Below are positions 1 to 62,289 of a stretch of DNA of 64,000 nt, in pieces. The notes beneath the pieces are model-generated. The model was not told where the DNA came from. It did not search any database and saw only the letters and a program-made list of their open reading frames with translations. Numbering within the stretch: the first letter of the stretch is position 1; each line of letters opens with the position of its first letter. This DNA comes from Heterotrichella gracilis (taxonomy: Eukaryota; Sar; Xanthophyceae; Tribonematales; Xanthonemataceae). A program made the position numbers and the translations under genes. Where the stretch lies: contig JAULBX010019632.1 of NCBI GenBank assembly GCA_032358255.1, forward strand, positions 1 through 64,000, in the 5' to 3' direction.

Positions 1-76
1 CACCACCACCACCACCACCACCACCACCACCACCACCACCACCACCACCACCACCACCACCACCACCACCACCACC
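1..76. repeat. (CAC)n trinucleotide microsatellite, read as poly-Gly
   Basis: About 25 CAC units lie at the left edge. On the minus strand, in the frame of the FUSC-like gene, they are GGT codons, giving a glycine run of at least 25 residues. The array may continue beyond the window. Confidence 0.9.
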
Positions 77-3000
77 ATCCGCTGCGCTGGTAAAGGACTC
101 ATCCCAGCTTCCCTGCAGCACCGTTAGGCTGTGCTGGCGCTGGTCCAGGCTGTGGCGGTGGGGGGTGGGGTGGCGGGGTGGTGGTGGCGGCGGCGGTGGG
201 GCGGGGGGTGTTGGTGGCGTTATTGCATGCAGCGCCTGCTGCAGCACCTCGTTTGCCAGGTCGGAAAGACCCTCTAGGGCAAGCCCGGTGTGCTCCCTTA
301 CCTGCAACATGAAAGTGAGGGGCGTGGGGATGCGGGGGTGGCATGTAGGGGTGGGGTGGGGTGGCGGCCGTGTGATTGGCCCCACTGCAGGACCTTATTA
401 GCTTGTGCTCAGACATGGTCACACTCCCATGCCACGCACTGTCTCAGAACAGCACCGAAACCCTAAACCCTAAACCCCTAAACCCTAAAACCCCACCTGC
501 TGCCGCGCGGTTGCGGGGAAGAGCACCACCTTGCACACCAGGGATATCACGCACCCCAGGGCCACACACAGCGCCCTCCACCCCGCAATAGTCCAGCTGG
601 CAGCGGAGGTCTGGTAGCCTGACAGGGCGATGAGGGCAACCGTCATCTTGGCCTACGTTAATTGAATGCAACGTCGGGTTGGTGCGACATTCAGATTCTG
701 TAGTCGTTAGTCCCTTTATTAGAGTGGGGGGAGGGGGCCCAGTTTGCATAGTTTTCATTCATTTTACAGCGCCCTCCGCCCCCGTGATTGTCCAGCTGGC
801 AGAGGAGGTCTGGTTGCCCGACAGCGCAATGAGGGCAACCGTCATCTTGGCCTGCGCGTTTTGGACTGAAATGGGTAAGCTAATGGGTAAACAAGCAGTG
901 AAATGCTGTAGGAACTTACTTTTTTTATTAGAGAGAGGGAAATGGGCACAGTTTGCATATTTTTCATGCATTCCACAGGGCTGCCGCACTAGTCCAGCTG
1001 GCAGCGGAGGTCTGGTAGCCTGACAAGGCAATGAGGGCAACCGTCATCTTGGCCTCCGCGGTTTGGACTGTATTTGGTAAGCAAGTGGGCTAGCAATAAC
1101 ACAACAAACATTACGTAGTCCATTCTCTCAAGTTCAGGTTTAAAAATACCCACGAAAGCTACAACACTGAATTATGTATGACTGCGCGGATTAATGCGCA
1201 GGCAAATAATGTAGCGCGGTGGGTTTTTGACAGTACGGTACACATGTAACTTGTTCAAGATCTACCATAATACCATTACACCAGCATGGTTGATAGATCA
1301 TTCCTACCTGCACCGTAGCTCCTGTGTACTGGGGATGGCGCTGCTCCCACCAGGTTATGAAAAAACCAGCAGTGGCCATGGCGGCAGTCATGGTGGCAAA
1401 CTGTGGGGGGTGGGGGGTGGGGATTGAGCAGCAGTGGGGTATGTTGGGGGATTGGGGGGCGAGAAGCGATGATGAAATGGTAAGGAGTGTGGGGAAAGTT
1501 TGTGAGGTGGTTGTGGGGCAAGGGGAGCAAAGGATCACGGTAAGCCATGCTGTCTTCTGGTACCCTAAAACCATCTCTCAAAAAATCCAAGGGAGATTGT
1601 TGGGGAGATTATGGAAGGTTCATCAGTAGTGGCGGGAGGGTGTGGGGTGGGCGCATGCAACTTTGGGGGGATGGTATGTTTACACAGACTAGCGATTGAT
1701 GCAGTGTAAGTACGGAGCTGCACCCAGCTTCAGACCCTACTTTCAAACCCTACACCCTACACAACCGTGTAGCACCCACCTTGGGTATGCCAGGGGCATG
1801 ATGGAAGCCAGTGGCAGCTCCCGATAGCAGCAGGCACAGCATACCCACCATTGCACCCACCGCAGTGCCTTCAATGCGCTGCAGCGTCTGGGCGGCCATG
1901 GCGGCGGTGCCGGGGCTGCGTGAGCGGCACAAAATCGTTTTGAGAAAACAACGTAAACTAGATGAAATGGACTGTGCTCTTTTGCTTTACATATGCTGCA
2001 GCGACTGGGCAGGGAATGGCACATATCTGGTACAAACACATACATATATGGATGTTTACATATAGGAACACAGATATTAACAGCAATAAAATGAAATAAA
2101 TGAACATAGTACAGTAAGTGTCTAGTTTGAGAAGTTGGGTTTCATATTCACAATTCAGGGTTTCGCCCCACCTGAGTGTCACGCACACGTACACCATGAT
2201 CCAGAAAGCAAGGCTGCATTTCGGGTTTAAGGTTGAGGGTTGTTAGGGTTGGAATTTAGGGTTTTGCCGCACCTGAGGGTAACGCACACGTACACCATGA
2301 TCCAAATGGTGTGGCTGCGGAAGGCGGCGTAGAGGGTGGCGTCCACTGTGAAAATGAGCGCAATGCCGTAGGCCACCGTCCACTGCAGCAAGGGGCAAAG
2401 TGGTGTGACTGTGGTGGGGGCCTTGTCATTGGTATGCAGAGATGGGGCTGAAAGCATCAAAAAACGTTTCAAATGTTGACAAACAAACAGTTTGTTTCAC
2501 CCCATGTATCGAGGGTTGCACATGCTGGTGGGTGCAGCTGTTGGGTGGGTGGACCACAGCACTGGGTACCAGAATATGTGTGTATTACCAAAATTTGAGG
2601 AAGAATGCGAAGCATGTTGTTACACATATGTATTTATGCCCTGAAGCATACAATACCTTGAGCGCCAGCCACATCTCAGTCTCCGTGTAGCCCGTGTGTC
2701 GATGTACCCACCCCAGCGCCGCCCGCACACCCACCACAGCCACATCCACACCACCAGCCAGGCTAGCCACTGCCATGCTGCGGGTGCTGCCGCCCCCCAC
2801 CCCCCCCTCCCACACCAGGGGGGTCGCGCCACTCGGGACACTGGGGAGGGGGTCAGTGAGGGGGACGCTGGGTTCTCGGCTGGGGGGGCGGAGGGTGGTG
2901 GGGGTGGTGGGTGGTGGGGGTTTTCGGCACCGAGGGGTGGTCAGCTCTGCAGATGCCCTCCGGCCGTGCTTGCGGGGGGATATGTCAATCACCACCTGGA

Positions 3001-6000: not shown

Positions 6001-8501
6001 CCTGCAGTGCATACATGGGTGACATGCCCACCACCAGCAGCGAGCGTGTGAGTTTGATGAGGTTGTTGTAGTGGAGCACAGGGAAGGTGTGGGGCCTGCG
6101 ATACACGTACAGCTCCAGGCTCGCTTGCCAGCTGCACAGCTTGCGCATCTGGATGAGGCTGGTGGAAATGTGCCTCCGGGTGGTGAACAGGGGGAGGATG
6201 ACCCCTGCCAGGCCGTCATCCACCCCGTCCGCGTCTTCATCATACCTGGAGAATACCATAAAAATACCGTAAGGTCGAGTTTTGAGGGGAGTCAAATGCA
6301 GAACGAGTGGGTCGTATAGAGGTCCACGCTTCAATTCCAATAATTCGTTGGTTGAGATGTGTCTGCGGGTGGTGATTAGGGGCAGCATGACCCTAGACAG
6401 GCCATCCATACCATCCGCGTCTTCACTATACTTGGGAAAAGACACAGGGCTTGGTGCAGTGCCGTACTACCCCAGCCTACCCTCTAGGAATGTTGAGGTC
6501 CTCCACCAGATTTCTGCTCATTGTAATCGAGAGGAGGTTTCATATTTCGCTTGCCCTGGTGACTCCAGGCGCTAAAAACTTAACCAGGGGGGTACATATA
6601 CAAGCAGTGGAACCCATGTTGGCGACCATACCCGTATGCTGCCTCTAGCCTGCCCTGCTTGTCCAGCCCCCCATTTAGGAATGCGACCATGAGGCCCTCA
6701 AGGAGGCCAGACAGCTTATCCAGTGTGGCGCAGTAGGCTGGGCGCACCTGCCAAACATTTAAAACACGTATTAATAATTAGGTGACAAGCGTTCCGGCAT
6801 TAAAGCCAGATTGGCACTCAGCACAAGCAATTACGCTCCACCAAGCAATAAGATAATTCCAATTCCTGAATGTGTTTCCTACTCCCCAGCCACACCCACC
6901 AAGATGCGTACATGTATGTATTTTTTTCAATGGTTTGGGATGCTACAGACGAAAAGAAATTGAAAAATCCACTCCCGCACCTGGTCCCCCAACATACACC
7001 GGCAGCAGCAGCAGGGACAACGCATGTTCCAGAGGGCTAATAAATTTGAATTTAGCTTTTAGGTTTTATGTTGTAGGGTTTAGACAGGCCGCACCTGGTC
7101 CCCCACGTACACCGGCAGCACCAGCAGGGACACCGCCATCGACACCACCATCCCCACGGTCACAGTCAGGAGATAGTAGCAGGCTGTCAGGGGGAGAAGC
7201 ACAGGGGAGGAGAAGGAGGAAAGTGTCACCACGCCCACTGACCATGTGGCGATCATCACGGTCAATGATAGCTGCTCATAGCGCAGGCGGTTGAGCGTCA
7301 TGAAAAAGACGAAGGGGAGCTGGAGGAGCGCCAGGGAAACCGCCTGCACAGGGGGGAAAGGAGGCCAATTGATGCGCGCAACATCATTTAACATGGCAGG
7401 CAGTGTCCACGTCATGGCGCCAACTCAGCGTTTCAAGTGGCAGGCGCTGTTCTCCTGGCCCCTACCAAGTACTACGCAGCCGTCACTGACCTGCGCTTGA
7501 TCATCCCCAATTGATCAACAGCCATTCATCATGCACGGTAAATCATCCTGATTGACCATCCATCCGTGACCATGTGCATTGTTATAGAGAGGCGTGCATC
7601 ATGCCAGCCAACCCCAGCACATCAGTACCCCAATCTGTAAACCCTAAAGCACTAGTACCTTGGTTGCCGAGCTGTGATAGCTGCTCCCGTTGCACAAGTA
7701 AGTGAGGTACATGGTGACGGTGCCCACCGCCCCCCCCACCACCACAGACAGCAGCACGCTCAACGAGAAGTAGACGGTCTGGCCCTGGCGCCCCGCCAGC
7801 ACAAAGCCCGCGTAGGAAATCCCATACACCGCGTTGATGCCGGCTGGTACATAGCTCACGAAGTTCCACACCGAGGGCACGCTGAAGGTTGCCACCAGGA
7901 TCGCCCAGGCTATGCCGGTCTGCAGGCACAAGGGGAGGAATTGTCAAAGGGTGAAAATATGGAAAAAACAACGTCGGGGGTGAAAAGGGTCCTCTCAAGA
8001 CCAGAGTGCAGCGTTAAGGGTTGGCTGGCCAGCCCAAAGCCTTAAGAGGCACACTGTGACTGGGGTGCAGTAGTGGGTGCGAGAGTGGGGGGTACATAGG
8101 TGGGTGTAGTGGTGGGTGCAATGGTGGGTATGGTGGTGGGTGCAGGGGTGGGTGTAGTGGTGGATGTAGGGAATGGTGGGTTGCAGCGAGTTGTGGGTGG
8201 AGGGGGTGGTGGGTGCAGGGGGTGGTGGGGTTGCACGTGGCAGGCATTGGAGAACGGGATGGTGTGGCATGCTCGCAGGGCTCAGCTTTGCGCACTGTTT
8301 TCGCATAAATGAACATATTACCAAAGCATTGCTTGCAGATGTACTAGAGTGTCTACGGCACCAAGGCTTGCCCGTGAGTCGCCCACCGACAATGCATGCA
8401 TACAGTGCAGAAGCACCTCTCATTCAACCGGGGGACCTCACCTGTGTAGCCAGTCGTAGAGGTGGCGGTATGGTCAGTAGCGCGGTGATCAAGTGCCGCA
8501 T
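1..8501 (-). CDS. FUSC/ALMT-like two-domain membrane transporter, 3' end outside window
   Basis: Minus-strand gene with phase-consistent exons 8442-8501 (tentative first exon, ATG at 8501), 7659-7919, 7095-7343, 6632-6747, 6002-6245, 5372-5496, 4963-5113, 3301-4599, 2657-2995, 2273-2382, 1780-1915, 1308-1400, 497-652 and 1-301, about 1213 codons. The first membrane block is in the exons at 7.1-7.9 kb and ends in LLVLPVYVGDQVRP. A long hydrophilic middle follows, including the 433-codon low-complexity exon 3301-4599. A second membrane block lies at 0.5-2.4 kb and ends in VVLFPATARQQVREHTG. Two helix bundles, each closed by an (L/V)xxP motif and a soluble helical segment, are typical of the FUSC/aromatic-acid-exporter superfamily, which includes plant ALMT anion channels. 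Substrate unknown. The last visible exon ends in a poly-Gly tract at the window edge. Introns hold copies of neighbouring exons. Confidence 0.75.
775..1075 (-). repeat. Two partial copies of the FUSC-gene exon 497-652
   Basis: The segments 775-865 and 985-1075 repeat the first half of the exon at 497-652 (residues AKMTVALIALSGYQTSAASW in the true exon). Both lie upstream of the true exon in transcript sense and keep its 5' (acceptor) side. After the shared part they diverge. Confidence 0.85.
4861..4908 (-). repeat. Copy of the donor end of FUSC-gene exon 4963-5113
   Basis: It repeats the last coding stretch of the upstream exon (FAMLVAT.N.CVH) together with a GTGAG donor. It lies downstream in transcript sense and is separated from the true exon by TTTAGGG-like motifs. 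Confidence 0.8.
5535..5810 (-). repeat. Several degraded copies of the acceptor side of FUSC-gene exon 5372-5496
   Basis: Short blocks near 5545-5576, 5609-5630, 5692-5717 and 5776-5805 match the start of the exon at 5372-5496 (TGKLSMRLVHD). They are interleaved with TTTAGGG motifs in the intron upstream of it. Confidence 0.6.
6346..6434 (-). repeat. Copy of the acceptor side of FUSC-gene exon 6002-6245
   Basis: It encodes a diverged version of the exon start (YSEDADGMDGLSRVMLPL against YDEDADGVDDGLAGVILPL in the true exon). It lies upstream in transcript sense. Confidence 0.85.
6979..7023 (-). repeat. Copy of the donor side of FUSC-gene exon 7095-7343
   Basis: It repeats the LPVYVGDQ end of the exon and its splice donor about 80 bases downstream in transcript sense, next to a TTTAGGG-like motif. 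Confidence 0.7.
8050..8240. repeat. G-rich minisatellite, roughly GTGGTGGGTGCA units
   Basis: This is a run of imperfect 12-base units rich in GGGTG on the plus strand. It lies in the first intron of the FUSC-like gene model. Apparent reading frames through it are low-complexity Pro/Thr/His strings and are not genes. Confidence 0.8.
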
Positions 8502-25998: not shown

Positions 25999-26469
25999 CG
26001 ACCACACAGTGGCCCTGTGCCTCCTGAGGCATATTGTGACCATAGCTCAGGCCGTGTGCCTATCAATGTGCTGCTGCTTCCAGATTTCAACGTTGCTATG
26101 CGCCACAAGGTCGATCTGCGAGGTGAGCTGCTGTGTATGGTGCCAGGTATCAAGCTGCATGTTTTTTTATGTGTCAACGATCTTTCGTCATACCATGGCA
26201 TTCAGTTGTCATTTGAAGTGCTGCAATACTGATTTGTAAAGGCTATAACAATAATGTACTATCAAATTAATCGAAAAAGGCCTTTCTTATTGCTACATGC
26301 TGCCACCCAAGGCCACTCTCGCCAACGCAAATATATTTCAGCAATTCCATCCATGATTCACAAAACTGCCGGCTGTCTGTCAAAATGGTAATGGAATGTA
26401 CTATGATATGTAATGATACCCTTGGAATGGGATTTCCATCCTACCAGCTGCATGGCACCTTTTCAAACC

Positions 26470-26600
26470 TCCCCGCTACAGGACCTAGGGTCCTGTTTCA
26501 TCGGCGCACACGCAGGGTGGGCGTCGAGTAGTAGGACAGTGGAGACACCCTGTTGCGCATGCGCCCCTCTAGGGGGCACGTGGACTCGAAGAACGTCTGA
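26470..26600 (-). repeat. Copy of the last exon of the ciliary-protein gene
   Basis: It repeats the C-terminal coding end (SYYSTPTLRVRR and the in-frame TGA) and adjoining codons, downstream of the true stop at 26695-26697 in transcript sense. Confidence 0.88.
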
Positions 26601-26694
26601 TGAAAGAATCACAAAATGCCTGCTGCCAGCAAGTACCAGGTACAGCTTGTGATAACCTTCTCCACCCCCCCTGCTGCGGTGCAGGGCCCTGTTT

Positions 26695-34640: not shown

Positions 34641-34850
34641 CCAAATCGCACTTGTGCGCTCACATGTCTGCTGGCGCATCCCTGTTCTGCACATGCAGAG
34701 GGTTGCAGGAAGCAGGGAAGCAGGTTGCTATGAGCGCACAGGAGTGCTCTGCTCTCCAGAAACCTGGGCGCCAGATCACGCGTCTCCCTGGGATCAATTC
34801 CCAGCCCTGCGCAAGGGCCTCAGCGGGACATCCGCCCGCACCACCCCACG
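34640..34850 (-). repeat. Degraded copy of the LamG-gene last exon
   Basis: It repeats the exon at 34872-35014, including the region coding QNRDVPADI, about 210 bases downstream in transcript sense. Confidence 0.82.
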
Positions 34851-34871
34851 CTCCCCGTTAAATTGTTGTAC

Positions 34872-49800: not shown

Positions 49801-52800
49801 CTTTCTGTGTTACACATGGGGTTCAATTTGAAAGGAGGGTTGTGGGTGCACGGTTGTCAAGACTCAGAAATGCAGGATTGCAAAAAAAGTCTTAATTGAT
49901 ATCACAATGTAGGAATTGTAGGGCACCAACAACGTAAAACCTGTTTTCTGAATATCCCGCATCGGTTTCTGTACAGTATGGAGAAATAAGGGTTTGGCAG
50001 CCTATGTACCATATGTATGCTGAAGCTTAAGCGGTGCGGTTTTCCCGCCACGGCCCTGTCTTGTGTGCATGCACGCGCAAGGGCCCCCACTGCAGTGCAT
50101 CGTGTGGTGCCAACGCATGGGCCAGCATGTGCACAGCCAGAGTGATGGCGGAAAAGCGCAACGAACAAGCTTTAGCATATAGCATGTTAAACAGTCTTCC
50201 AAACCCTCCTTGCAAATGACCCATATTGTACAAAGCACAAGACTGCATCATACCTACAGGGGATGATTAAGAGCTGCCAGTGCTGGGGGTTAGCAATGTC
50301 AAGGCTGAAGGTTCCAATACCTAATACTAACTGGTATCATGCTATGATAGTCTCATTTGCATAAAGCAGTGCAAAGGGGCCACTGCAGCTGGTAGCGCAA
50401 CATTTTCAACATGCACCAAGGGTGTTTTAGGGTCTCTGTGACCCAAGGTACAGTAGCAAGTAGAGGATACACAGGCACATTATGCCACCCCCTCGCAGGT
50501 ATGTTGAAAATGTATGTTTAAAGCACTGGTTCATTGCTAGAACTTGTTGCTGCAAGCAGGTAGAAAGGCAGACCCTACTGCCAACACCCTGAAACCCTAA
50601 AACAGCTGAGACCCCTACCCCCTACCCACCTCCCACCTGATACCATCGTCGTAGTGAACAGAAGGATGGAGTCACCCCCCAAGCTAAAGTCTAGTAGCGC
50701 TACGCTACCCATTACATTGACTGTCCAGTACTGCACAGGGGTAAGCTTCAGCGCGGAAGCGCAATCCCTAGAGACCCATGACTAATATGGGAAATCCGCT
50801 AAAATTTACATATATATGGGCTTCATATATTTGAAGCCCTCCATATACAAGGACGTACTCACCAGTTGTCATATTTGAACATCATAAATACCCCCCTTGC
50901 CATGAATCCTTGTGCCCTAGCAACTATCTATTTGCAATTCCACAGCCTACAACCAAGACACCCTAGGAAACACCTGCCACCCCACAAACCAAACCACTGG
51001 TTTAAGACTTCAACTTCAATTTACTCACCAGTCGTTGTAGTTGAACACTAGGAATGAATTATCCCCCTTGCCATAGTCCCCGGTGGCGTAGCTGAAGGGC
51101 ACACCCTCCGAGCAGCGGTCCACGCTCCACATCCAAAACTCAAGGGTCAGCTCCTTATCAGGGAAGTCGTGGAAATTGGGCAGGATGAGGGTCTGCAGGG
51201 AGTGGGAAGGGTTTATTTTTTGCTTTGCCCAAGACATGGGCTAGGGGAGGGGGGTAGCGTGTTTCACATTAGTATGGTATTTGTGGCATTTCCCGCTAAG
51301 GCGGTCCACGCTCCACATCCAAACCCAAGAGGGTCCTGTCCTGTCGGGGAAGCCGTGGATCCATCGAAATTCAGCAGGATGAGGGTCTGCAAGGAGATTT
51401 TATACTATGACACAATCAAAATGGATTTCCCGGTTACGGTTTAGGGTTTAGGGTGCGGCTGGAGGATGTGGATCCCAGGTGTCAGGGGGAGGGGTGTGTT
51501 GTCCATGCTGGGTTTCAGGGTTTTAGGGTTTTAGGGCTCCAGATGAAGGTTCAGTGGCACCAGTCCACTATACAGCTGCAGCCGTGGCTGACTGCACTGG
51601 TGGGTATGGGCCGGGTGTGTGATTTGGGTTGAGGGATAGGATCACCCTGGTTTATGTTTTACGGTTAGTAAAACCCTCAGGGTGTTACATTCTGGGCTTA
51701 GGGTTAGTATGATCTCTGTAGTTTACGTTGTAAAAATTCCGTGTGGTATCACCTGTCTACCATGCAGTTGCAGTCCCAGGCGTACTCATACCTGGTTCAA
51801 TACTGGCAATTATATTTTGCTACCCTGTCCATGTATCAAGCAAACCTCTATCAAATCTGCTGTATAAAAGTACCATGCACATTCACTATTTAGGGTTTTG
51901 GGTTAAAGTTGTTAGTGAGTGGCCAGTGTGAAGTGGTGGGAGCTTCATATGCATCACACCACACTTAACCACACTGCATGATGACAGGCCGCACTGCACC
52001 GTGAGGCTTTGAAGGATGTGGAGCTCCCCCAATTCGTGCAGGCCATTCGTTGTTAGCCTAAACCCAAGACCCTAAATTGTAAAACCTTGTTATAAATACA
52101 ATTGGAATGATAATAGCACCGCCTGTGCCACTGCGCCCTTGGTACAAGTTTACCATTGCTTTCACCCTGAATCTGGACGGCGGCGACCTGGAACTCCGCC
52201 ACTGGCCACTGAGTATAACAAAATCTTGAGCCGCTGCTGTTCAGACTGAGGTGACAGCACTATTAAATCCATACGAAGGGCGCAGTAGGTCGCGGTGCGG
52301 TGACCACCCAACCTGGACCATTTCTCGATACTAATTTGAGTTTGCTGATTCCGTAGTTTTCTCTTCCTTTTCCCGTTGCTATTCCCCGGTGGCGTTCACC
52401 CGGATTCAGCTGCAACCCATACCCAGCTGCAGCTGAAATGTAGAGTGTGCCCTCGTGTGCCACTGCTTCACCGCCCCGCTTGAGGATGATACAGACAAGC
52501 CGTTGCCTGATGCCACCCATGGTGGGTAGGGCTGCAACCCATATCCAGCGGGAGCCCTATCCACCAAAGGGTGGCACCAGAATACGGCTGCCTGTCGTCA
52601 GCCTCAAGCGGGGCAGGGAAAGTATTGCCACACAAGGGCACACTCAACATTTCCCAATCCAAGGTTATCTTTGAAACTCATTTTTCTATTGTAGATGTGA
52701 CAACTGCAGAAGAAAGTTTTCTGGTTTTTCGTGATTTTCTGCTCACCTGACTGCCATGCAGATGCAGCCCACACTCAACTGAGCCGGGGTATGCCCAGCA

Positions 52801-55800
52801 GGAACTTTACTGTGCCTCCCGCAACAGGGGGCAGTGAAATGCCGCCACATATGTGTGCATTACTTTAATCTTAAACTTTTTTTTCACTTTCTTCCATCCC
52901 TCCCCTCCCCTCACCCACCTGTCTGTTCTGCAGCTGCAGCCCATCTCCAGCCGCACCAGTGGTGGCCCAGGCAGGGGCTTGCCTATGCCTCCCCAAACGG
53001 GGCAATGAAACACCGCCACACAAATGTGCCATATTTTTAACATCCTGAGGTTTGTTTCAGTTCCCCCCCAACCCCTCCCCTGCTCCCCTCACCCACCTGT
53101 CTGTCATGCAGCTGCAGCCCATATCCCGCCGCGCCACGGTTTGAGCAATAGGGTTTTAGACTTTTAGACTTTTTGGGTTTAGGTTTTAAATCACCTGTCT
53201 GTCATGCAGCTGCATCCCATACCCAGCCGCACCGGGTGTGGGCCCAGGCAGGGGTTTGCCATTGTCATCCGCAAGGGGGGCGGTGGAGTACTGCCACACG
53301 GGCGCGTCACTGCCCAGCAGCAGGCGGTTGTAGCCATCGTGCTGCTTGTCCTTCACTGTCTGCAATTAATTTAAACTAGATTGGGAGATCATCAATAGTT
53401 AACGCTAAGCATACGTTTTGCCAGCAAACGCAGATACGCAGTTCTGCACCATTATTTTGATTTTGCATATTATGTAATCAGTTGCAACTGAAAATGCATA
53501 TTAATAGTGCACTGCAGCGGGGGGAAAAGGGTGCCAAAAAAAAGTAGTTTGGATAGCTTTTTGCCTTTCCGCAGCCCACAGGTAGATACGACATATTAGG
53601 GTGTAGGGTGTGGAGAGCGAGGATTTGCATCGCAATGCCCAACCTTTACCCTATTTACAACGACCATGCGGCAGCACTTGAAATCACACCCACACGACAC
53701 CTCCTCTCTAAATTTCACGAATCCTTTCCTTTCCACGCACCATCTGAGAATCCGCAGGTACCATGTTCTGCGCGCCAAAATTGAAATCTAGCTGGAGCCC
53801 CGTCTTATCCCCGGGATCGTTGGTCCACATGGCCTCTTTCACCTGGTCATGTGACAGCACCCGGGCCCACACGCGCACATTGGCTATGTCGCCATCCAGC
53901 GAGTACTGTGGGGAGAAGCAGCCCCCCAAGCAGTTCTGCATCTGACCAAGCACCAGAGAGCCTGCGGGCAAAATGTAATGGGTGTTTGTCTGGAGTTGTG
54001 AATTGTCTGGAATTGTGAAGAGACACACTAGGCCACAGTATCACAATCTAGTGCTGCAGAGGTAAATATTATTTATATTTTTGATGTTTTTGAAGCTGTA
54101 CGCGACGCCTTGACCTAGTAATGACTGTAACCAGCCAGTTCAGCATCTGGCAAAACACCAAATATAAATTAACTGAAGTTGCAGCAGACTACCTGTAGCC
54201 ATCTTTGGCCATGGCCAGGGATCCCATTCTTTGGGATTTCAGTGGTTCTGGTATGACACACAATTACAATTGTATCAAAGTCTGGTACTGACAAGCACAT
54301 TGTTTTCCATGCATGCGTTGCCAAGGTGGTGTACAAGGAGCAGATGCAATTTAAGGTCAGTAACACAGGACTAGTCATGACCTGTGCAATGCATTGCCAT
54401 GTGTTTGTGTCAATTTTGCAGTCACAGAATGAGCAATCGGCAATGGTACAGCACTGCTTTCAAACCCACGCACTGCAGATAAATTTCCTGAGCAGTGCGT
54501 GACCCATCCAGGTAAATGTAAATGGGTAGGACGATAATCCACTGGCAGCCTGGGGCTCTTTGTCCCCAGAGTGCCCGGGGTTGTGGTACTACACTCATAC
54601 CTTACCTGGAAGGGTCGCGCACTGCTCAGGGCCGTTGGGCACAGGGCGTGACTAGGGAGCTGGACAGTAGTGCAGCGGAATGATACACTAGCAGGCACTG
54701 AACCATCGGTTGCATCCGATGATGGCCAAATACAGTAAGGGCGTGGGTATACAATGGTCCCAGGCAAGGCGCAAAAGCCACAGTCGTTGGCAGGCGACCA
54801 TCATGATCACAAAAAATACTCCGTTTTCTGCCCCAATTGTGAAGCAAAAGCACTACACGTGACATTAAATGAGAACCAAGTGTTGCCATCATAATGAGTC
54901 ACTACTGGACCTGGAGACTAGTGTGAAACGCATTGATGGGATCACCCCATACCGTTAAATTTATGGGCTTTGAATTTTTATTGGCTTGGTAACACGCCGG
55001 CATGCAAATTCTGAATTCTATGTCCCACTGGCAGGCTTGGCATATTTGTAAACAGTTACACGAATGTGAAGAGAAAGCAGGGACATTGAGAGAAAGCAAG
55101 GACCTTCGTTTTAGAGGAATATTGCATTTTTTGCAATTGTTGCAAGGTTGTGCTGCTTTTCTTGCATACAATCCCATCTACCCACAATAGACGCCTTCGC
55201 CATAGAGAAAACAGGAGCCCCACCTGTTATTGCCCTGGGTGTCCGGGCAGCAATGTTTGGATCCACCCCCCCCTTGTCAGCCCCCTTGTAGTCAAGGTTA
55301 CCCTCGGATGAGCGCCAGTAGGGGATCCTTGGCTCCCCATCAAAGTACAGCTTGACCTCCCCTGTCTCGTACTCCCAGGTGACTGCCAGGTGATGCCAAT
55401 TGTCATCCTCCCTGCACCACACGACACTTGGTGAATGCAAAACATTTCTTGTTGGATGTATGTCACAGAGGGTCAGATGGCTAGGGTTTTAGAATGGCGT
55501 TCAGGGTTTTTTTGTGTTGGCTCCCCATCAAAGCAGTACCTGACTGCAGGGTGGTGCCGGTTATTGTCCTGAAATGCCGCCACATATGTGTGCATTACTT
55601 TAATCTTAAACTTTTTTTTCACTTTCTTCCATCCCTCCCCTCCCCTCACCCACCTGTCTGTTCTGCAGCTGCAGCCCATCTCCAGCCGCACCAGTGGTGG
55701 CCCAGGCAGGGGCTTGCCTATGCCTCCCCAAACGGGGCAATGAAACACCGCCACACAAATGTGCCATATTTTTAACATCCTGAGGTTTGTTTCAGTTCCC

Positions 55801-58800
55801 CCCCAACCCCTCCCCTGCTCCCCTCACCCACCTGTCTGTCATGCAGCTGCAGCCCATATCCCGCCGCGCCACGGTTTGAGCAATAGGGTTTTAGACTTTT
55901 AGACTTTTTGGGTTTAGGTTTTAAATCACCTGTCTGTCATGCAGCTGCATCCCATACCCAGCCGCACCGGGTGTGGGCCCAGGCAGGGGTTTGCCATTGT
56001 CATCCGCAAGGGGGGCGGTGGAGTACTGCCACACGGGCGCGTCACTGCCCAGCAGCAGGCGGTTGTAGCCATCGTGCTGCTTGTCCTTCACTGTCTGCAA
56101 TTAATTTAAACTAGATTGGGAGATCATCAATAGTTAACGCTAAGCATACGTTTTGCCAGCAAACGCAGATACGCAGTTCTGCACCATTATTTTGATTTTG
56201 CATATTATGTAATCAGTTGCAACTGAAAATGCATATTAATAGTGCACTGCAGCGGGGGGAAAAGGGTGCCAAAAAAAAGTAGTTTGGATAGCTTTTTGCC
56301 TTTCCGCAGCCCACAGGTAGATACGACATATTAGGGTGTAGGGTGTGGAGAGCGAGGATTTGCATCGCAATGCCCAACCTTTACCCTATTTACAACGACC
56401 ATGCGGCAGCACTTGAAATCACACCCACACGACACCTCCTCTCTAAATTTCACGAATCCTTTCCTTTCCACGCACCATCTGAGAATCCGCAGGTACCATG
56501 TTCTGCGCGCCAAAATTGAAATCTAGCTGGAGCCCCGTCTTATCCCCGGGATCGTTGGTCCACATGGCCTCTTTCACCTGGTCATGTGACAGCACCCGGG
56601 CCCACACGCGCACATTGGCTATGTCGCCATCCAGCGAGTACTGTGGGGAGAAGCAGCCCCCCAAGCAGTTCTGCATCTGACCAAGCACCAGAGAGCCTGC
56701 GGGCAAAATGTAATGGGTGTTTGTCTGGAGTTGTGAATTGTCTGGAATTGTGAAGAGACACACTAGGCCACAGTATCACAATCTAGTGCTGCAGAGGTAA
56801 ATATTATTTATATTTTTGATGTTTTTGAAGCTGTACGCGACGCCTTGACCTAGTAATGACTGTAACCAGCCAGTTCAGCATCTGGCAAAACACCAAATAT
56901 AAATTAACTGAAGTTGCAGCAGACTACCTGTAGCCATCTTTGGCCATGGCCAGGGATCCCATTCTTTGGGATTTCAGTGGTTCTGGTATGACACACAATT
57001 ACAATTGTATCAAAGTCTGGTACTGACAAGCACATTGTTTTCCATGCATGCGTTGCCAAGGTGGTGTACAAGGAGCAGATGCAATTTAAGGTCAGTAACA
57101 CAGGACTAGTCATGACCTGTGCAATGCATTGCCATGTGTTTGTGTCAATTTTGCAGTCACAGAATGAGCAATCGGCAATGGTACAGCACTGCTTTCAAAC
57201 CCACGCACTGCAGATAAATTTCCTGAGCAGTGCGTGACCCATCCAGGTAAATGTAAATGGGTAGGACGATAATCCACTGGCAGCCTGGGGCTCTTTGTCC
57301 CCAGAGTGCCCGGGGTTGTGGTACTACACTCATACCTTACCTGGAAGGGTCGCGCACTGCTCAGGGCCGTTGGGCACAGGGCGTGACTAGGGAGCTGGAC
57401 AGTAGTGCAGCGGAATGATACACTAGCAGGCACTGAACCATCGGTTGCATCCGATGATGGCCAAATACAGTAAGGGCGTGGGTATACAATGGTCCCAGGC
57501 AAGGCGCAAAAGCCACAGTCGTTGGCAGGCGACCATCATGATCACAAAAAATACTCCGTTTTCTGCCCCAATTGTGAAGCAAAAGCACTACACGTGACAT
57601 TAAATGAGAACCAAGTGTTGCCATCATAATGAGTCACTACTGGACCTGGAGACTAGTGTGAAACGCATTGATGGGATCACCCCATACCGTTAAATTTATG
57701 GGCTTTGAATTTTTATTGGCTTGGTAACACGCCGGCATGCAAATTCTGAATTCTATGTCCCACTGGCAGGCTTGGCATATTTGTAAACAGTTACACGAAT
57801 GTGAAGAGAAAGCAGGGACATTGAGAGAAAGCAAGGACCTTCGTTTTAGAGGAATATTGCATTTTTTGCAATTGTTGCAAGGTTGTGCTGCTTTTCTTGC
57901 ATACAATCCCATCTACCCACAATAGACGCCTTCGCCATAGAGAAAACAGGAGCCCCACCTGTTATTGCCCTGGGTGTCCGGGCAGCAATGTTTGGATCCA
58001 CCCCCCCCTTGTCAGCCCCCTTGTAGTCAAGGTTACCCTCGGATGAGCGCCAGTAGGGGATCCTTGGCTCCCCATCAAAGTACAGCTTGACCTCCCCTGT
58101 CTCGTACTCCCAGGTGACTGCCAGGTGATGCCAATTGTCATCCTCCCTGCACCACACGACACTTGGTGAATGCAAAACATTTCTTGTTGGATGTATGTCA
58201 CAGAGGGTCAGATGGCTAGGGTTTTAGAATGGCGTTCAGGGTTTTTTTGTGTTGGCTCCCCATCAAAGCAGTACCTGACTGCAGGGTGGTGCCGGTTATT
58301 GTCCTCCTTGCACCAGTGAGAATGTTTCAAAATAATGTTGATTAAAATATTGAATTACACAGCTTGACCTCCCATCTTTTGCACTCCCAGGCGACGAGTC
58401 ATGTTGGTGCCAATCATCATCCGCCCCTGTGCCACAGAAATGCAATAAGTAAATGAATTTACATAACAGCACTTCAGTTTTAAACCTACATTTATAATAA
58501 ATATCTTTCCCAGCCACTATCCGATTTGGCTTCTTGTCGTGTATGCCATTACATATCACTGAACACTTGTGGTAATTGCTTTTCTCTAGTATCCATATCT
58601 ACATTGGCTGTTGTTCACTTGCTTTTCCCTCCTCCGCATTGCATTGCCAAACCTCGTTGACCCTCCATTGCTGCCTGGCTTCCAGCAAGTTCCTTCCTGG
58701 TCAGCTGGTAGCATTGGAGGGTCAAAGAGGTTTGCCACTGTGATGAGAAGTCGTGCGCGTTTGGAAAAAGCAAGTGCACATAAATCCGACTGGCCACTAG

Positions 58801-61800
58801 GTGCACCTGGGTAATTTCCAATTTACCTTATTTATTTTGGGGGTTATTTCAAACACTGCATACTCTCGTGCCCCATTTTTGGTGGTCCACGAACCATCTC
58901 AGTGCAACGTCCACCCAGTGGTCGTACTGCTGCCCATTGCCCTTGTGATTGGCGTTCACATGCAAGCTCACAGACCCCTACGTATACATTCTGCCCCCAA
59001 ATTCCACCCACTTATACTTGATGTTCATCCACCATGGTTCCCTTCAAAGAAGACCCTTCACAAGCAAATGCCCACCTCCGTCATTCCTACTCACCGTCCC
59101 AGTGCAAAGTCCATCCAGTGGTCGTATCTCTGCCCAATATTATCCTTGCAGTGGACATTCATGCTTGCAGACCCCCAGATGAGCTTTGAACCCTCAAAGT
59201 TTATAAATTTTCAAAATGTAATATATCATTTTTAATTGACCCAGAAAGCGCCCAAACCCCAACTCCCTACTCACCGTCGCAGTGCAAAGTCCACCCAGAG
59301 GTCATATCTCTGCCCATTGCCCTTGCGGTTGGCGCTCACGTGCACACTCACAGAGCCCTACGTGTGAATTCTGCCCCCAGATTCTACCCACACATACTTT
59401 GAACCCCATGGGTCCCTTAAAAAAAGGCCCTTCACTAACAAATGCCCACCACCCACCACCAACACTTACCAGCCCAGTGCAAAGTCCACCCAGTGGTCGT
59501 ATCTCTGCCCATTGCCCTTGCGGTTTGCATTCACGTGCACGCTCACAGAGCCCCATGTGTGCTGATCCTGGTCATATCCCAGCCAATGGGAGCCAGCGTA
59601 GTCCTTCATGTACTTCTCGATGAGGATGGCATCGTCGGCAAACACCGAGACTGCAAGGGGGTCGTCTGCAGGGGAGGGGAATTGGGGGGCGAAGCTTCTT
59701 TTGGTTGTACATTTGCAGGGTACGGTTCATGGGGGGGACATATGGTGAGTGGTCAAAAAACCCACGTTGAAAAGGTAAGACATGTTAAAGGTTTATGATT
59801 AGGGCAGCGTTTTTGCTCAAAATGCATGCGTCACAATCTGCATATTAATGGTATGCTGTGCAAACTGCAGCGTGCACATGTTTAACATGCATGCCTCCTA
59901 GATGCAGTCCTGGCGCAGATGCAAGGTGTGAATGTTGCGCGGGTTGCTGCAAGACTTAGTGACAAGAGCTCGTCGGCCAGGCAGTGGCGAATCTACACGG
60001 AGTGTGGCCATGTGCTCTGCATCCAACCTGGCTCAGCGCTGAGCGGTGGTAAGTTGCCAATGCACTGATCATAAATGCACTTAATTGTGAAGAATTGCGT
60101 GGCGATGAGGAAAGTACTGCTCGCTGCAACAGCACTACACCATCTGGCCAGGTTAGATGGAAAGCACATGGCCACACACCGTTCTCTTGCGCATACGACG
60201 AGGTTGACCAGCCGAGAGCCAATTGTTCTTGACAACTGCAGCAGCAGCTGGGCAACCCGGGCATGCGGAAGCAAATGGTATGTGACCATGTGCTTTGCAT
60301 CCAACCTGGCTAGCGGTGGCACTGCCTCTCAAATTGCCAATGCATGGTGCATCACACGCCTGACTGAGTGGCGTTGAGGAAAGTACTGCCCGCCGCAACA
60401 GTACTGCACCATCTAGCCAGGCTGGATGCAACGCACATGGCCTCAAACCGCTTTCAGCATGGGCCTGGTTGACCAGCCGAGGGCCAGTAGTTCTTGACAA
60501 CAGCTGCATCAGCTTGTGGAGCACACCATAGCGGAACAAAACGGTTTGAGGCCTTGCGCTTTGCATCCAGCCTGGCTAGCGGTGACAGATTGCCAATATG
60601 GCATGTGCATGATGCATTCAGATTGAGTGGCGTTACACCACTGCACCAACTAGATGCTATGCAAAGCAATTAAATAAACACGATAAATTATTCCAAGCCT
60701 TTACTATATAAACCAACAAATCACCCCCCTTAACCCACCCGCCCACCCGCCACATCCCAACCAGCCTCACCAGGGTTTGTCACATGCACTGCACATGCAC
60801 ACGCACATGCACTTGTACGACCTGTTTCAAGCTGTACAAGTCGTGCACATCCTGCTTGTTGCTCCTGACACCCGTACATGCTCACAATCTGACCCAGCCA
60901 CCAACCACAATCAACCCTACCACCACCTAACTGTCACATGCACGGCACAATAGACCATCACCCTAGCCCTCCCACCCGCACGCCACATCCCACCCACGCA
61001 ACTCACCAGGGTTTGTGACGTGCATGGCATATGAAAAAAAAGGTTGTAAAAGCCATGCAGCGCCTGCTTATCACTATTGGCACCAATGCGCACCTAGACT
61101 TCAACCAAACAGTTGAAGCTAATGTGTCTCTCCCCATCCTTCCAGGGAGCAATCTGCAACCGCCACAATCAACCCTAAACACCACATTTGCCACATGCAC
61201 CACACAATAGACCATCACCCTACCCCACCCGCCCACCCGCCACACCCCACCCAGCCAACTCACCAGGGTTTGTGACGTGCGTGGCGTACGAGAAGAAGTC
61301 GTAGACATCGTGCACCGCCTGCTTGTCGTTCTTGGCACCGGTGCGCGCCCAGAATCTGACCCAACCACCACCACAGTCAACCCTACCACCACCACATTTT
61401 CGAACACACCATCACCCTAGCCCACCATCCCATCCACCCACCACATCCCAACCGGCCTCACCAGGGTTGGTGACGTGCGTGGCGTACGAGAAGAAGTCGT
61501 AAAAGTCATGCACCGCCTGCTTGTCGTTCTTGGCACCCGTGCGCGCCCAGAATTCAACAGTGAAGTCCTTCTCAGGCATATCTGTTACTGTGGGGTTCCA
61601 TGCGTAGTTGTTCTGAAAGCGCAGCTGACCCGTGTGGAGGGTGTGGCCATCCTGTGGGGGGGGGTTGGAGCATGATAAAGGGTTTTGGCAATTATAAATC
61701 ACCAATAAACAAGAGCACCAAGGTCATCTTAATAGTATCATTGGAGGGTGCGGGCATGCTGCGGATTGCAAGGGTCATGTTTAGGGCTTTGTTAAGGTTT

Positions 61801-62289
61801 TGGATGAGGGATTTCATGCAAAGTTGTCCTGTTGTTAGGTTGATAAAAGGGCTTGCACGTACCGCAGCGATGGTCACTTCAGATTGCTCAGGATGCCTCA
61901 GCAGGGGAAGATCATGCCCCCTGCCAGAGGAATCCTTGGCAGCTGTGTGCTGCACCTGCACGCCCTCATGAGGAGCCCTTGCAAGCTCCGGATCGTCCAT
62001 TTTCAGGGTTCCAAGGTCAGCAGACCTCCCATTCCCCTAGCTAAATCTACGCTCTAGGGTTTAATTTGGGGGCAGCATGATTCCGATTTCGTACCGCAGC
62101 AATGGTCACTTCTGACTGCTCAGGCGGCCTCAGCAGCGGCAGATCATGCCCCCTGCCAGAAGAGTCCTTGGCAGCTGTATGCTGCACCTGCACGCCCTCG
62201 AGTTCCGGATCATCAAACTTCCAGTAGGCGGCCAGGTGCGGGTGGTTCTGCAGACCCGCGCTGGAGCGCATGTGGGTGATGATCTCCTC
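34872..62289 (-). CDS. Large LamG-DUF4215 single-pass surface protein, 5' end not found
   Basis: Fourteen phase-consistent exons, 824 residues, end at TGA 34872-34874: 62095-62289, 61462-61651, 59470-59665, A 57959-58146, B 56476-56696, C 55930-56094, 51029-51192, 42759-43006, 42291-42491, 41557-41660, 38379-38483, 37695-37782, 35356-35622, 34872-35014. A, B and C recur identically at 55224-55411, 53741-53961 and 53195-53359; only one set can be used. Two LamG/pentraxin-like beta-sandwich domains are visible: AYWKFDD to NWHHLAVTWEYETGEVKLYFDG to DIANVRVWARVLS, and FWMWSVDRCSEG to WHHVAVTWRSDSG to IDEVRIWKKA. A third start, VAYWQFDEGSG, runs into a DUF4215 Cys-rich repeat (VCGDGVVEGAEECD, GDGCSHTCK, EDGYVC). 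A Ser/Thr/Pro stalk, one helix (TIATVLVSLLGITALGFFTF) and a roughly 80-residue tail follow. This is probably an extracellular adhesion or cell-covering protein. Confidence 0.92.
35255..35350 (-). repeat. Donor-end copy of the membrane-helix exon, with TTTAGGG motifs
   Basis: At 35255-35295 the exon end coding RLVPRQDP (35356-35622) is repeated downstream in transcript sense. TTTAGGG-like motifs fill the space between the copy and the exon. Confidence 0.75.
36776..36881. repeat. Hexanucleotide array (GCCATT)n then (GCCAGT)n
   Basis: About four GCCATT units pass into at least 13 GCCAGT units and run into the assembly gap. The array lies in the intron between exons 35356-35622 and 37695-37782. 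Confidence 0.95.
36882..36981. other. Assembly gap of exactly 100 N
   Basis: One hundred Ns, the conventional mark of a gap of unknown length, follow the hexanucleotide array. Apparent reading frames across it are meaningless. Confidence 0.99.
37938..38240 (-). repeat. Copies of the DUF4215 exons
   Basis: The block 37938-38012 repeats the whole start of exon 37695-37782 (IEDGYVCTRTSPSRCYR) with its acceptor, upstream of it in transcript sense. A second block near 38150-38240 codes a decayed DUF4215 start (GVVEGAEECDPGTDVE), downstream of exon 38379-38483. Confidence 0.85.
39117..41475 (-). repeat. Array of seven donor-end copies of exon 41557-41660 in a 3-kb intron
   Basis: Segments near 39117, 39240, 39670, 40105, 40530, 40925 and 41430 repeat the exon end coding DLHILEKPEWV plus its donor (plus strand, CACTCACCACCCACTC). 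They are spaced mostly 390-500 bases apart and are separated by CCCTAAA motifs and by the palindromes described separately. Confidence 0.85.
39355..41225. repeat. Five long imperfect palindromes, about 165-180 bp each
   Basis: Units at about 39355-39520, 39765-39935, 40220-40395, 40622-40800 and 41048-41225 each begin near GCGCCACCGTCTTGCTTCTG and end near its reverse complement. The arms are about 70-80 bases. A related single arm lies near 38600-38680. I see no coding capacity. Confidence 0.8.
41790..42210 (-). repeat. Three donor-side copies of LamG exon 42291-42491
   Basis: The copies at 41790-41890, 41967-42000 and 42098-42210 repeat the part coding RSSEQVWGAMKAHL and GVDPNDPG with its donor. 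All are downstream of the true exon in transcript sense, and similarity falls with distance. Confidence 0.85.
43088..43190 (-). repeat. Acceptor-side copy of LamG exon 42759-43006
   Basis: It repeats the acceptor and the coding start VMEDEGGWD.HTSGISSTDG, then WHHVA, upstream of the true exon. The two copies are nearly identical. Confidence 0.92.
43440..47800. repeat. Array of about nine long foldback (palindromic) units
   Basis: Units begin after a TTAGGGTTGTG(T/C)GC-like junction near 43812, 44328, 44553, 45005, 45594, 46050, 46757, 47205 and 47643; one precedes them at 43440-43730, and a remnant starts near 48604. Each is an imperfect palindrome. In the unit 44558-44960, GGTCCACACGGGCATCCCAT near the left end pairs with GGGATGCCTGTGTGGACC near the right end, and pairing continues inward through GCCGCAGCCATGTACT. 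Outer flanks also pair (GCACCAGCCAG against CTGGCTGGTGC). Spacers carry TTTAGGG motifs. The array lies in the 8-kb intron 43007-51028 of the LamG gene and codes for nothing recognisable. Confidence 0.88.
48955..48969 (+). repeat. Target-site duplication, left copy
   Basis: TATATCAGCTCAGAT flanks the SINE on its left. The identical 15-mer follows the SINE tail at 49285-49299. Confidence 0.93.
48970..49284 (+). mobile_element. Complete tRNA-derived SINE, 315 bp
   Basis: The head contains an RNA polymerase III promoter: A-box-like TGGCTCAGCAC at 49003-49013 and a perfect B box GGTTCGAATCC at 49059-49069. The wide spacing suggests a tRNA with a long variable arm. A unique body follows (from about TCGAATTTCCCTGAAC to GAAGCTGGAAAGC), then a simple tail of ACTT/CTTA repeats. 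Exact 15-bp target-site duplications flank it (48955-48969 and 49285-49299). It has no coding capacity, so it would have moved with a LINE's machinery; no LINE is in the window. The tight flanking repeats and intact tail suggest fairly recent insertion. Confidence 0.93.
49285..49299 (+). repeat. Target-site duplication, right copy
   Basis: TATATCAGCTCAGAT is identical to the left copy at 48955-48969. Confidence 0.93.
49620..50260. repeat. Further palindrome-like intron sequence
   Basis: Near 50037-50157, TTTTCCCGCCA and TGGCGGAAAA lie about 100 bases apart in inverted order around GCATGTGC-rich sequence. Near 49680-49770, ACATGT/GTGCATGTGC motifs recur in both orientations. This resembles the foldback array at 43.4-47.8 kb but is more degraded. 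Confidence 0.55.
50640..51390 (-). repeat. Copies of LamG exon 51029-51192 on both sides
   Basis: The copy at 51296-51390 repeats the acceptor and TLILPNF side upstream of the exon. The copy at 50865-50915, and weaker traces near 50640-50690, repeat the donor side (YGKG...FNYNDW) downstream. Both kinds of copy thus occur around one exon. Confidence 0.8.
52360..53145 (-). repeat. Donor-side copies of LamG exon C (53195-53359)
   Basis: Successive fragments near 52370-52480, 52500-52640, 52745-52835, 52915-53015 and 53097-53145 repeat the exon end (AAGYGMQLHDRQ in the true exon) and donor, all downstream in transcript sense. The last two are inside the 2735-bp duplication and recur at +2735. 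Confidence 0.75.
52835..55569. repeat. 2735-bp tandem duplication, copy 1
   Basis: It holds one full set of LamG exons A, B and C (55224-55411, 53741-53961, 53195-53359) with their introns. Every open frame I could compare between the copies is identical, on both strands. Boundaries: CAG/TGAAATGCC on the left; GTTATTGTCC/TGAAATGCC at the junction. Confidence 0.95.
55570..58304. repeat. 2735-bp tandem duplication, copy 2
   Basis: It repeats 52835-55569 at a constant offset of 2735, holding exons A, B and C at 57959-58146, 56476-56696 and 55930-56094. It ends at GTTATTGTCC before TCCTTGCACC. Confidence 0.95.
58270..58432 (-). repeat. Two acceptor-side copies of LamG exon A
   Basis: The blocks 58270-58310 and 58365-58432 repeat the exon start (EDDNWHHLAVTWE in the true exon), each after an acceptor-like CAG or AAG, upstream of exon 57959-58146. 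Both are degraded. Confidence 0.8.
58885..59345 (-). repeat. Three donor-side copies of LamG exon 59470-59665
   Basis: The copies beginning near 58885, 59090 and 59272 repeat VHVNANRKGNGQRYDHWVDFAL and a donor, all downstream in transcript sense. Each is about 180-205 bases from the next. Confidence 0.92.
59950..60665. repeat. Tandem palindromic units of about 270 bp
   Basis: CATGTGCT(C/T)TGCATCCAACCTGGCT-like sequence recurs near 60010, 60285 and 60550. Its reverse complement (near 60150 and 60420) alternates with it, so each unit folds back on itself. It lies in the intron between LamG exons 59470-59665 and 61462-61651. Confidence 0.82.
60768..61354 (-). repeat. Three donor-side copies of LamG exon 61462-61651
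   Basis: The copies at about 60768-60900, 61008-61100 and 61261-61354 repeat KNDKQAVHDFYDFFSYATHV and its donor. They are downstream of the true exon, about 200-250 bases apart, and similarity falls with distance. Confidence 0.92.
61862..61999 (-). repeat. Donor-side copy of LamG exon 62095-62289
   Basis: It repeats VQVQHTAAKDSSGRGHDLPL and the donor downstream of the true exon, with a short insertion near DDPEL. Confidence 0.92.

Follow-up and report, generated by a model that had tools for sequence, protein, structure and literature searches.

The window, by which we mean the whole stretch of 64,000 nucleotides of Heterotrichella gracilis DNA analysed here, harbors several predicted genes and, next to their exons, partial copies of those exons (Table 1). 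Pfam matches support the kinesin (E-value 1.1e-105), SET, and LamG (Pentaxin/Laminin_G_3) genes named in a preliminary description of the window, as well as a mitochondrial carrier gene; the gene there called FUSC-like gave an ALMT match (3e-5), and the one called ciliary did not retrieve any Pfam match. The only run of N covers positions 36882-36981. LHC proteins are encoded in the genome, indicating that the organism is photosynthetic.

Table 1. Exon-edge copies and related features in the window (exons as predicted by the gene finder; offsets in bp; percentages are identities).
Feature	Positions	Strand	Description
Exon-edge pair	2152..2304	-	copy 2152-2203 downstream of exon 2273-2382, donor side, offset 101, 90%; spacer with telomere-like words
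ALMT/FUSC-like gene	6160..6435	-	upstream copy 6349-6435 of exon end 6160-6249 (parent), acceptor side, offset 189, 78%; the aligned position in the copy no longer has AG
Exon-edge pair	6975..7136	-	copy 6975-7023 downstream of exon 7095-7343, donor side, offset 114, 92%
Kinesin gene	14031..14298	-	copy 14031-14115 downstream of exon 14233-14458, offset 184; 55 spacer columns match the flank beyond the copy at 76%
Kinesin motor	15183..15448	-	copy 15183-15257 downstream of exon 15381-15551, donor side, 93%; differences synonymous (5/5)
Kinesin	16551..16774	-	upstream copy 16683-16774, acceptor side, offset 132, 82%
Kinesin coiled coil	18068..18339	-	downstream copy 18068-18139, donor side, 97%; differences nonsynonymous (2/2)
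SET gene	22161..22468	+	copy 22161-22254 upstream of exon, acceptor side, offset 212, 85%; differences 7 synonymous and 2 nonsynonymous; spacer telomere-like
SET gene, three-copy array	22847..23133	+	downstream of donor of exon 22759-22890; offsets 122, 221
3' end of gene called ciliary	26457..26796	-	copy 26457-26599 downstream of parent 26655-26796; stop codon inside the repeated block; HMM donor placed beyond the stop
Exon-edge pair	37729..38025	-	upstream copy 37950-38025, acceptor side, offset 221, 89%
LamG gene	41417..42400	-	donor-side copies downstream of exons: 41417/41541; 42089/42281 at 89%; 41787 further out
LamG gene	42918..43205	-	upstream copy 43091-43205, acceptor side with pyrimidine tract, offset 173, 90%
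LamG gene	51115..51396	-	upstream copy 51301-51396, acceptor side, 77%; decayed, gaps of 8, 1, and 1 bases
Perfect tandem duplication, 2736 bp	52835..58305	strand-neutral	52835-55570 / 55570-58305; a recent event or an assembly duplication
LamG gene	58082..58436	-	decayed upstream copy 58359-58436, acceptor side, 77%; three 1-base gaps
Donor-side copy array	58893..59561	-	downstream of exon 59470-59665; offsets 195, 372, 575
Donor-side copy array	60728..61558	-	downstream of exons 61237-61355 and 61416-61651
Exon-edge pair	61858..62199	-	copy 61858-61967 downstream of exon 62095-62289, donor side, 91%; 9 synonymous, 1 nonsynonymous

When the window was aligned with itself (blastn), all ten copy ranges named in the preliminary description overlapped local direct repeats. 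Seven of the ten are single exon-edge copies, among them 58270-58432, which was recovered in part only, with a match at 58359-58436; 22970-23118 lies in a three-copy array, and 58885-59345 and 60768-61354 correspond to multi-copy arrays downstream of predicted donors. On the HMM gene models, the window alone contains 15 clean two-copy exon-edge pairs, plus seven multi-copy clusters, one of which is satellite-like and another a repetition of a third inside the 2.7-kb duplication; the reported total of at least 20 partial exon copies is plausible on these data, its exact value not being confirmed.

The analysis was extended to another 23 stretches of the genome, each of 10 kb (19 sampled loci and four held-out loci, the latter amounting to 40 kb), giving, with the window, 294 kb, all of which was self-aligned. 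Exon edges were those predicted by a self-trained HMM gene finder, which calls some of the copies exons and splits introns there. The counts exclude one stretch (L027, GC 0.36) and any pair within the second copy of the 2.7-kb duplication. The self-alignment retrieved 200 local direct pairs, present in 27 of 30 regions and with spans covering 15.4% of the intron bases. Direct pairs with a period below 600 outnumbered non-palindromic inverted ones 129 to 11 in 20 stretches, and the held-out 40 kb yielded 24 direct and no inverted local pairs. After removing overlapping (multi-copy) pairs and those with spacers shorter than 10 bp, a filter that also discards most contiguous tandem pairs, 82 clean two-copy pairs remained, i.e., about one per 3.6 kb, and 51 of them contain one exon edge. 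Tandem duplication across a single exon edge, proposed from the window, is supported as a process that recurs in unrelated genes, in the window as well as in the other sampled stretches.

The consistent polarity that had been described also held: copies keeping the acceptor side lie upstream of their exon, and those keeping the donor side or the stop codon lie downstream. This rule was obeyed by 40 of 41 exon-edge pairs in the window and the 19 sampled loci and by nine of ten in the held-out loci (49/51 combined). One exception (L014:9695/9906) involves an exon cut by the end of its stretch, the other (L040:4718/4852) having no explanation. Random placement of the same pairs gave, per 82, 12.7 on the right side, 6.1 on the wrong side, and 40.2 without an exon. 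Moreover, in 18 of the 51 pairs the opposite placement would have spared the exon as well, and 16 of these 18 still obey the rule. A search centred on exons found 92 donor-side copies downstream and 26 upstream, and 72 acceptor-side copies upstream and 18 downstream, the remaining matches being at other loci (56), further off at the same locus (33), inverted and local (11), or within the exon (8); we think that the polarity is less clean here in part because copies were themselves called exons. Copies on the opposite side, or in unrelated genes, as frequent as the expected ones were not seen on self-alignment. As to what the polarity means, any tandem duplication that spares the exon gives it, so that no splice-aware mechanism is needed, and the pair 26457/26655 has the same geometry at a stop codon. 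The polarity therefore stands as a fact, and not as evidence for a process directed at splice junctions.

The most likely origin of the partial exon copies, and one that we consider somewhat probable, is contiguous tandem duplication of units, mostly 60-240 bp long, across one exon edge. The duplicated unit would cross a splice junction or a stop codon; one copy would stay attached to the remaining exon and in use, while the other would land in the adjacent intron or 3' region. The intron half of the unit would then erode fast, and old pairs would end up looking like exon fragments set apart from each other, with ends only slightly within the intron; their spaced appearance would be due to this erosion. 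Formation may be blind to exon structure, may be promoted by breakage near telomere-like repeats, and would recur at the same edge, giving rise to arrays, in a process that appears genome-wide in the sample. Direct orientation, polarity, arrays, and an excess of intron homology on the predicted side are all observed. The repeated blocks reach a median of 18 bp into the intron, so the unit includes intron beyond the edge. Among 48 spacers (those below 20 bp being dropped), similarity to the sequence flanking the copy on its far side reaches p<=1/26 in 11 (1.8 expected; 2/48 in a matched control) and p<0.2 in 27 (9.6 expected; 9 in the control), individually significant homology being absent in 37 of the 48. 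Decay is evident in the frameshifts of nine of the 13 pairs below 80% identity. At 30 exon ends, at least two copies lie on the expected side, some of these "exons" being copies called as such.

The sharp edges of the blocks had also suggested a spaced duplication with unduplicated filler. This was set aside in view of the residual homology, which lies on the predicted side and persists after controlling for composition; already in a first comparison, 13 of 67 spacers scored above all controls (6.1 expected). A quantised offset was likewise rejected: the 82 two-copy pairs avoid the interval 142-172 (1/82; scan versus permutation, P about 3e-4), but arrays (12 of 64 spacings, from 28 of 30 arrays) and other local pairs (11/93) fill it.

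The coding sequence of the copies is better preserved than that of dead copies should be. Their dN/dS-like ratio is 0.31, versus 0.52-0.53 in a dead-copy simulation, and they contain two in-frame stops versus about 7-11 simulated; at matching dS, dead tandem copies reached an identity of 77, a dN of 0.15, and about 11 stops, the observed values being 86, 0.085, and 2. These simulations of decay considered donor-type duplications only. The 35 frame-intact pairs have a ratio of 0.24, and the 16 of 51 with frameshifts, i.e., the dead copies, one of 0.46. The splice dinucleotide is kept in 42 of the 51 copies and lost in nine; it is intact in all 25 pairs of at least 84.5% identity. The best-fitting model among those tried has copies constrained for 70% of the time. 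The pyrimidine content upstream of acceptors was equal in parent (0.63) and copy (0.64; n=11) and hence uninformative. The view of introns full of decoy splice sites holds for the copies insofar as their dinucleotides are retained. The description as decoys is contradicted in part, however: for long periods the codons of the copies seem to have been constrained, which sets them apart from plain neutral decoys. Nor did the idea that the duplications lengthen introns find support: the median is 263 bp for predicted introns touching a duplication and 293 for the others, the gene finder splitting introns at copies.

Codon constraint is left unaccounted for by tandem duplication and counts against it. 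It would be expected if two diverged homologous sequences stood head to tail, as haplotypes left overlapping by the assembler or as products of unequal joining between diverged homologues, the offset being the overlap, since each piece would then come from a working gene. We regard this as unlikely. It agrees with the low ratio of the frame-intact pairs, with the intact dinucleotides of the pairs of high identity, with the perfect 2.7-kb duplication, and with false exon gains described in PMC9516828 as adjacent exon pieces of two working alleles in heterozygous assemblies. It also agrees with the lack of near-identical pairs (none of 200 at >=98% identity, two at 96-98%), which is odd for an ongoing duplication process unless the assembly collapses young copies. 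Against it, no second haplotype of 14000-19500 or 58000-60000 was found in the 68.5-Mb assembly, the regions searched in full; three-copy arrays and dead copies do not suit two working haplotypes; and none of the 200 pair spans contains N, although false duplications are, according to PMC9516828, mostly separated by gaps. Constraint and retained splice sites would also be expected if the copies were functional alternative ends of exons, employed in alternative splicing. This appears improbable: at the exon-internal edge of the copies, a complementary site does not exceed background (21 donor-type copies, mean percentile 0.46; 30 acceptor-type copies, 0.32), duplication of part of the kinesin motor would be difficult to put to use, and 24 of the 28 gaps falling in exon parts have lengths not divisible by three. 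Stand-alone or mutually exclusive alternative exons were rejected, the second flanking splice site not being enriched. Rather unlikely, too, is a reading in which the intronic exon ends, lacking a second splice site of their own, remain for most of the time subject to selection at the protein level, or are continually reseeded from diverged working alleles, telomere-like repeats marking their sites of formation.

A mechanism targeting exons or splice junctions, such as RNA-templated copying of exon ends, could explain why, once six satellite-like pairs are set aside from the 200, 156 contain an exon and 38 do not, whereas blind uniform placement of units gives a roughly estimated 47% and 53%. 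Intron-only pairs, however, are hard to detect after erosion: an alignable intron half is found in 28 of the 156, and this detectability predicts 32 intron-only pairs. The rough correction removes the excess, and the yield fits blind placement. The shortness of the intron part is harder to reconcile with tandem duplication: simulation reproduced 18 bp only with 0.25 indels per substitution and longer indels, giving 50 bp at a rate of 0.12, and the rate measured in aligned intron-only pairs is 0.145 gaps per mismatch (mean 2.5 bases). Given the residual intron homology beyond the blocks and the same geometry at a stop codon, exon-aimed copying seems very unlikely. A donor elsewhere in the genome was also rejected, the kinesin-region copies having no covering match outside C197. 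The spacers, for their part, are 3-4 times enriched in TTTAGGG-type words relative to region-matched sequence, which nothing in the preliminary description anticipated: telomeric heptamers occupy 484 bases (120±37 region-matched) and occur in 29 of 82 spacers (10.4±3.0). This enrichment, replicated in the held-out loci, would suit breaks healed with telomere-repeat filler, the spacer being new DNA from telomerase or captured telomeric sequence. Yet 53 of the 82 spacers lack such a word, and spacers derived from duplicated intron are in excess. Simple telomerase filler fails on motif orientation: instead of the predicted outward strand polarity, C-rich runs lie 17 on the left and 11 on the right, and G-rich runs 15 and 7. 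We hold this origin of the spacers to be highly improbable.

Small duplications within genes are reportedly frequent (the internal gene duplication of Gao and Lynch, 2009); the pairs described here share this frequency and differ in their partial units over one edge, their one-sided outcome, and their codon constraint. A parallel case is the potato RdRp gene (PMC4974935), where a tandem genomic duplication across an intron-exon boundary likewise left a partial exon copy in the intron with inherited splice signals. That is one recent case, whereas 294 kb of this alga hold 51 clean exon-edge pairs, old and partly iterated; the new intron arising from a cryptic site in potato has no demonstrated counterpart here. 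In Rogers-type intron gain (Rogers 1989, Hellsten 2011, as described in PMC4974935), local tandem duplication of an AGGT-bearing exon segment also places exon sequence in introns, but that unit lies within one exon and takes both splice sites from AGGT, whereas the alga's units straddle an existing edge. The false exon gains of PMC9516828 differ in that our pair spans are free of N, lack a second haplotype where fully searched, and include dead copies and three-copy arrays. Introners (PMC9860276) are genome-wide additions to introns, as are these copies, but spacers and copies here do not form one family common to different genes; an introner family was discarded, as the 17 spacers matching elsewhere in the 294 kb (E<1e-3) were by eye telomeric, low-complexity, or local. 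Single boundary-crossing duplications are, then, already known; what is new is their density and constraint. Among the titles listed in a literature search that covered few subscription journals, none reports one-edge exon duplications collected genome-wide in an alga.

The copies represent a dense natural record of small tandem duplications remodelling genes at exon edges. Leftover exon ends can corrupt exon annotation in such a genome; indeed, the gene finder called several copies exons, e.g., the doubled stretch of the kinesin motor. The link with telomere repeats makes an origin in break repair testable. If the codon constraint is real, and not due to haplotype mixing, the question becomes what partial exon copies do; were they selected as exon ends, introns holding spare exon ends in a functional state would be a widespread form of gene organization.

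Each of the ten places at which the preliminary description had named partial exon copies overlaps a local direct repeat in a self-blastn of the window. Twenty 10-kb stretches from other contigs harbor 129 direct pairs (period <600), against 11 non-palindromic inverted ones. A clean two-copy set comprised 82 pairs from 24 loci (294 kb): the window plus 19 stretches supplied 67, and four additional held-out stretches the other 15; according to the gene models, 51 include one exon edge, 15 lie within an exon, 14 are exon-free, and 2 span a whole exon. The consistent polarity that had been claimed, i.e., acceptor-side copies upstream of the exon and donor- or stop-side copies downstream, was correct in 49 of the 51 exon-edge pairs, versus 12.7 correct and 6.1 incorrect ones expected under random placement, and it was kept in nine out of ten pairs of the held-out stretches. 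The finding is real and, within the sample, genome-wide.

The contig belongs to a 68.5-Mb assembly in 903 contigs, and the window represents its first 64 kb. The light-harvesting proteins encoded in the genome point to a photosynthetic eukaryote. The exon and intron calls are predictions of a gene finder trained without annotation, which settled on clear splice signals (AG/GTGAG for the donor and TGCAG/G for the acceptor), with a median predicted exon of 126 bp and a median intron of 280 bp. The predicted window proteins matched kinesin, SET, Pentaxin/Laminin_G_3, a mitochondrial carrier and, weakly, ALMT; the Rfam search retrieved no family at gathering score, and the tRNA search no tRNA.

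In principle, if a tandem duplication spanned an acceptor, the remaining exon would follow the second copy and the spare copy would lie upstream; a duplication spanning a donor or a stop codon would necessarily leave it downstream. Since the remainder of the exon fixes the side of the spare copy, polarity tests tandem versus dispersed duplication, not splice-aware versus blind duplication, and it is most likely a by-product of tandem duplication across exon edges. It is informative where the opposite placement is possible, as judged by exon length, that is, in 18 of the 51 pairs, 16 of which obey it. The pair 26457/26655 includes a stop codon, with the same geometry as at splice edges.

The aligned blocks have a median exon part of 65 bp and a median intron part of 18 bp, the latter being the shorter in 38 out of 41, and the spacers between the copies revealed no ungapped identity along the copy-to-copy offset. 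Spacers were also aligned, with gaps, to the flank beyond the copy (the expected place of an eroded intron half), using dinucleotide-shuffled flanks as controls: the resemblance was significant in 11 of 48 spacers (1.8 expected) and had p <0.2 in 27 (9.6 expected), the corresponding numbers for control intron segments taken from other positions of the locus being 2 and 9. Part of the spacers thus consists of duplicated intron, often shifted by indels. If units of the lengths seen here were placed uniformly, 53% would be exon-free, 30% would cross a single junction, 10% several, and 7% would fall within an exon. Exon sequence is present in 156 of 194 local pairs (satellite-like arrays excluded) and absent from 38; the 156 include 28 contiguous pairs, in which an intron half is alignable. 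By rough arithmetic, intron-only duplications detected at only this rate (18%) would number about 32, versus 38 seen, so that placement blind to exons is tenable; against it, the simulations reproduced the short intron part only when indels were more frequent or longer than those measured. The most likely mechanism is tandem duplication of the ordinary kind that crosses exon edges, occurring at an unusual density.

Registers of TTTAGGG are the most frequent of the over-represented 8-mers in the sampled sequence (14–28 times expected). In the genome sample and the window, TTTAGGG-type words account for 1.9% of intron bases outside duplications, 6.8% inside them, and 0.3% of exon bases. Telomeric heptamers occupy 484 bases of the spacers and occur in 29 of the 82, versus 120 ± 37 bases and 10.4 ± 3.0 in intron windows matched by region (0 of 1000 draws as high); in the held-out spacers, telomeric words reach 7.7%, versus 1.4% in introns outside duplications. 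These repeats may mark break-prone sites or promote duplication. Telomerase adding repeats at both ends was rejected, as the motif orientation within the spacer does not fit.

Other repeated features of the window, with their positions
Feature	Size	Window positions	Location	Method
Dispersed repeat ending in (TTAC)n	195 bp	23903-24097; 49084-49278	Both in predicted introns	
Perfect tandem duplication	2736 bp	52835-58305	Within LamG gene	Self-blastn
Long imperfect palindromes	74-297 bp	e.g., 37241-37377; 52435-52653; 63723-63886		
Satellite-like arrays with internal inverted repeats	Units of ~420-450 bp or more	39108-41299; 43471-47693	Long predicted introns	

For the dispersed repeat, a first look across the genome gave 395 candidate places, of which 40 were scored, the repeat ones being 94–96% identical. 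Its copy at 49084 is preceded by GGTTCGAATCC, which we take to be tRNA B-box-like, and the element therefore looks like a tRNA-derived SINE. The perfect tandem duplication either arose recently or was created by the assembly. All 28 long imperfect palindromes detected in 294 kb fall in predicted introns and are possibly foldback or MITE-like elements. One sampled stretch, L027 (C145:20001-30000), has a GC content of 0.36 versus 0.49–0.57 in the other 19, and its contig and C135 are both 99892 long; it comes perhaps from an organelle or foreign contig.

Two or more copies lie on the expected side at 30 exon ends (some of these being copies called as exons), and at 20 of the 30 the similarity of the nearest copy equals or exceeds that of the farthest. 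None of 200 pairs has an identity of at least 98% and only two fall between 96 and 98%, the perfect 2.7-kb duplication being outside this set for its too long period; this reflects a slowing of the process, the collapse of young copies by the assembly, or copies that are already divergent at birth. Offsets avoid about 142–168 bp in two-copy pairs (1/82 in 142–172), a gap possibly due to chance, whereas those of arrays do not (12/64).

The 51 exon-edge pairs differ 90, 85, and 208 times at codon positions 1, 2, and 3, respectively, with a dN/dS-like ratio of 0.31 (bootstrap 0.25–0.38) and two in-frame stops in 970 codons. With the parent constrained and the copy simulated as dead, the ratio is 0.52–0.56 (sd 0.05–0.06) and the stops number 6.7–8.9; these values also hold under the mutation spectrum measured in introns of this sample. 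The ratio is 0.24 in the 35 frame-intact pairs and 0.46 in the 16 frameshifted ones (dS about 0.27 in both), and the splice dinucleotide is retained in 42 of the 51, including all 25 with an identity of at least 84.5%. When donor-type tandem duplications were simulated together with their decay and their detection by blastn, dead copies reached, at dS 0.28, an identity of 77, a dN of 0.15, and 11 stops per 970 codons, while constraint over the first 70% of the copy life gave, at older ages, identity 84–86, dN 0.08–0.11, ratio 0.38–0.41, and 4–7 stops; the observed pairs (86, 0.085, 0.31, and 2, respectively) are nearer to the latter. This simulation shows that blastn detection alone does not produce the low dN/dS and the few stops; the copies are not simply dead. 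Against constraint, 24 of 28 exon-part gaps have lengths not divisible by three, the two youngest pairs (97%) differ only nonsynonymously (2 and 2), and sorting pairs into identity bins selects on dN.

Ordinary alternative exons do not account for this pattern, because no second splice site was found at the copies in the 51 exon-edge pairs. A derivation of the copies from a diverged working allele, through biology or assembly, would explain the codon constraint; no second haplotype was found for two window stretches, with every candidate in the assembly scored, and the existence of arrays and of dead copies argues against a pure artefact. What deserves specialist attention, once haplotype mixing is excluded, is the codon constraint on the copies.
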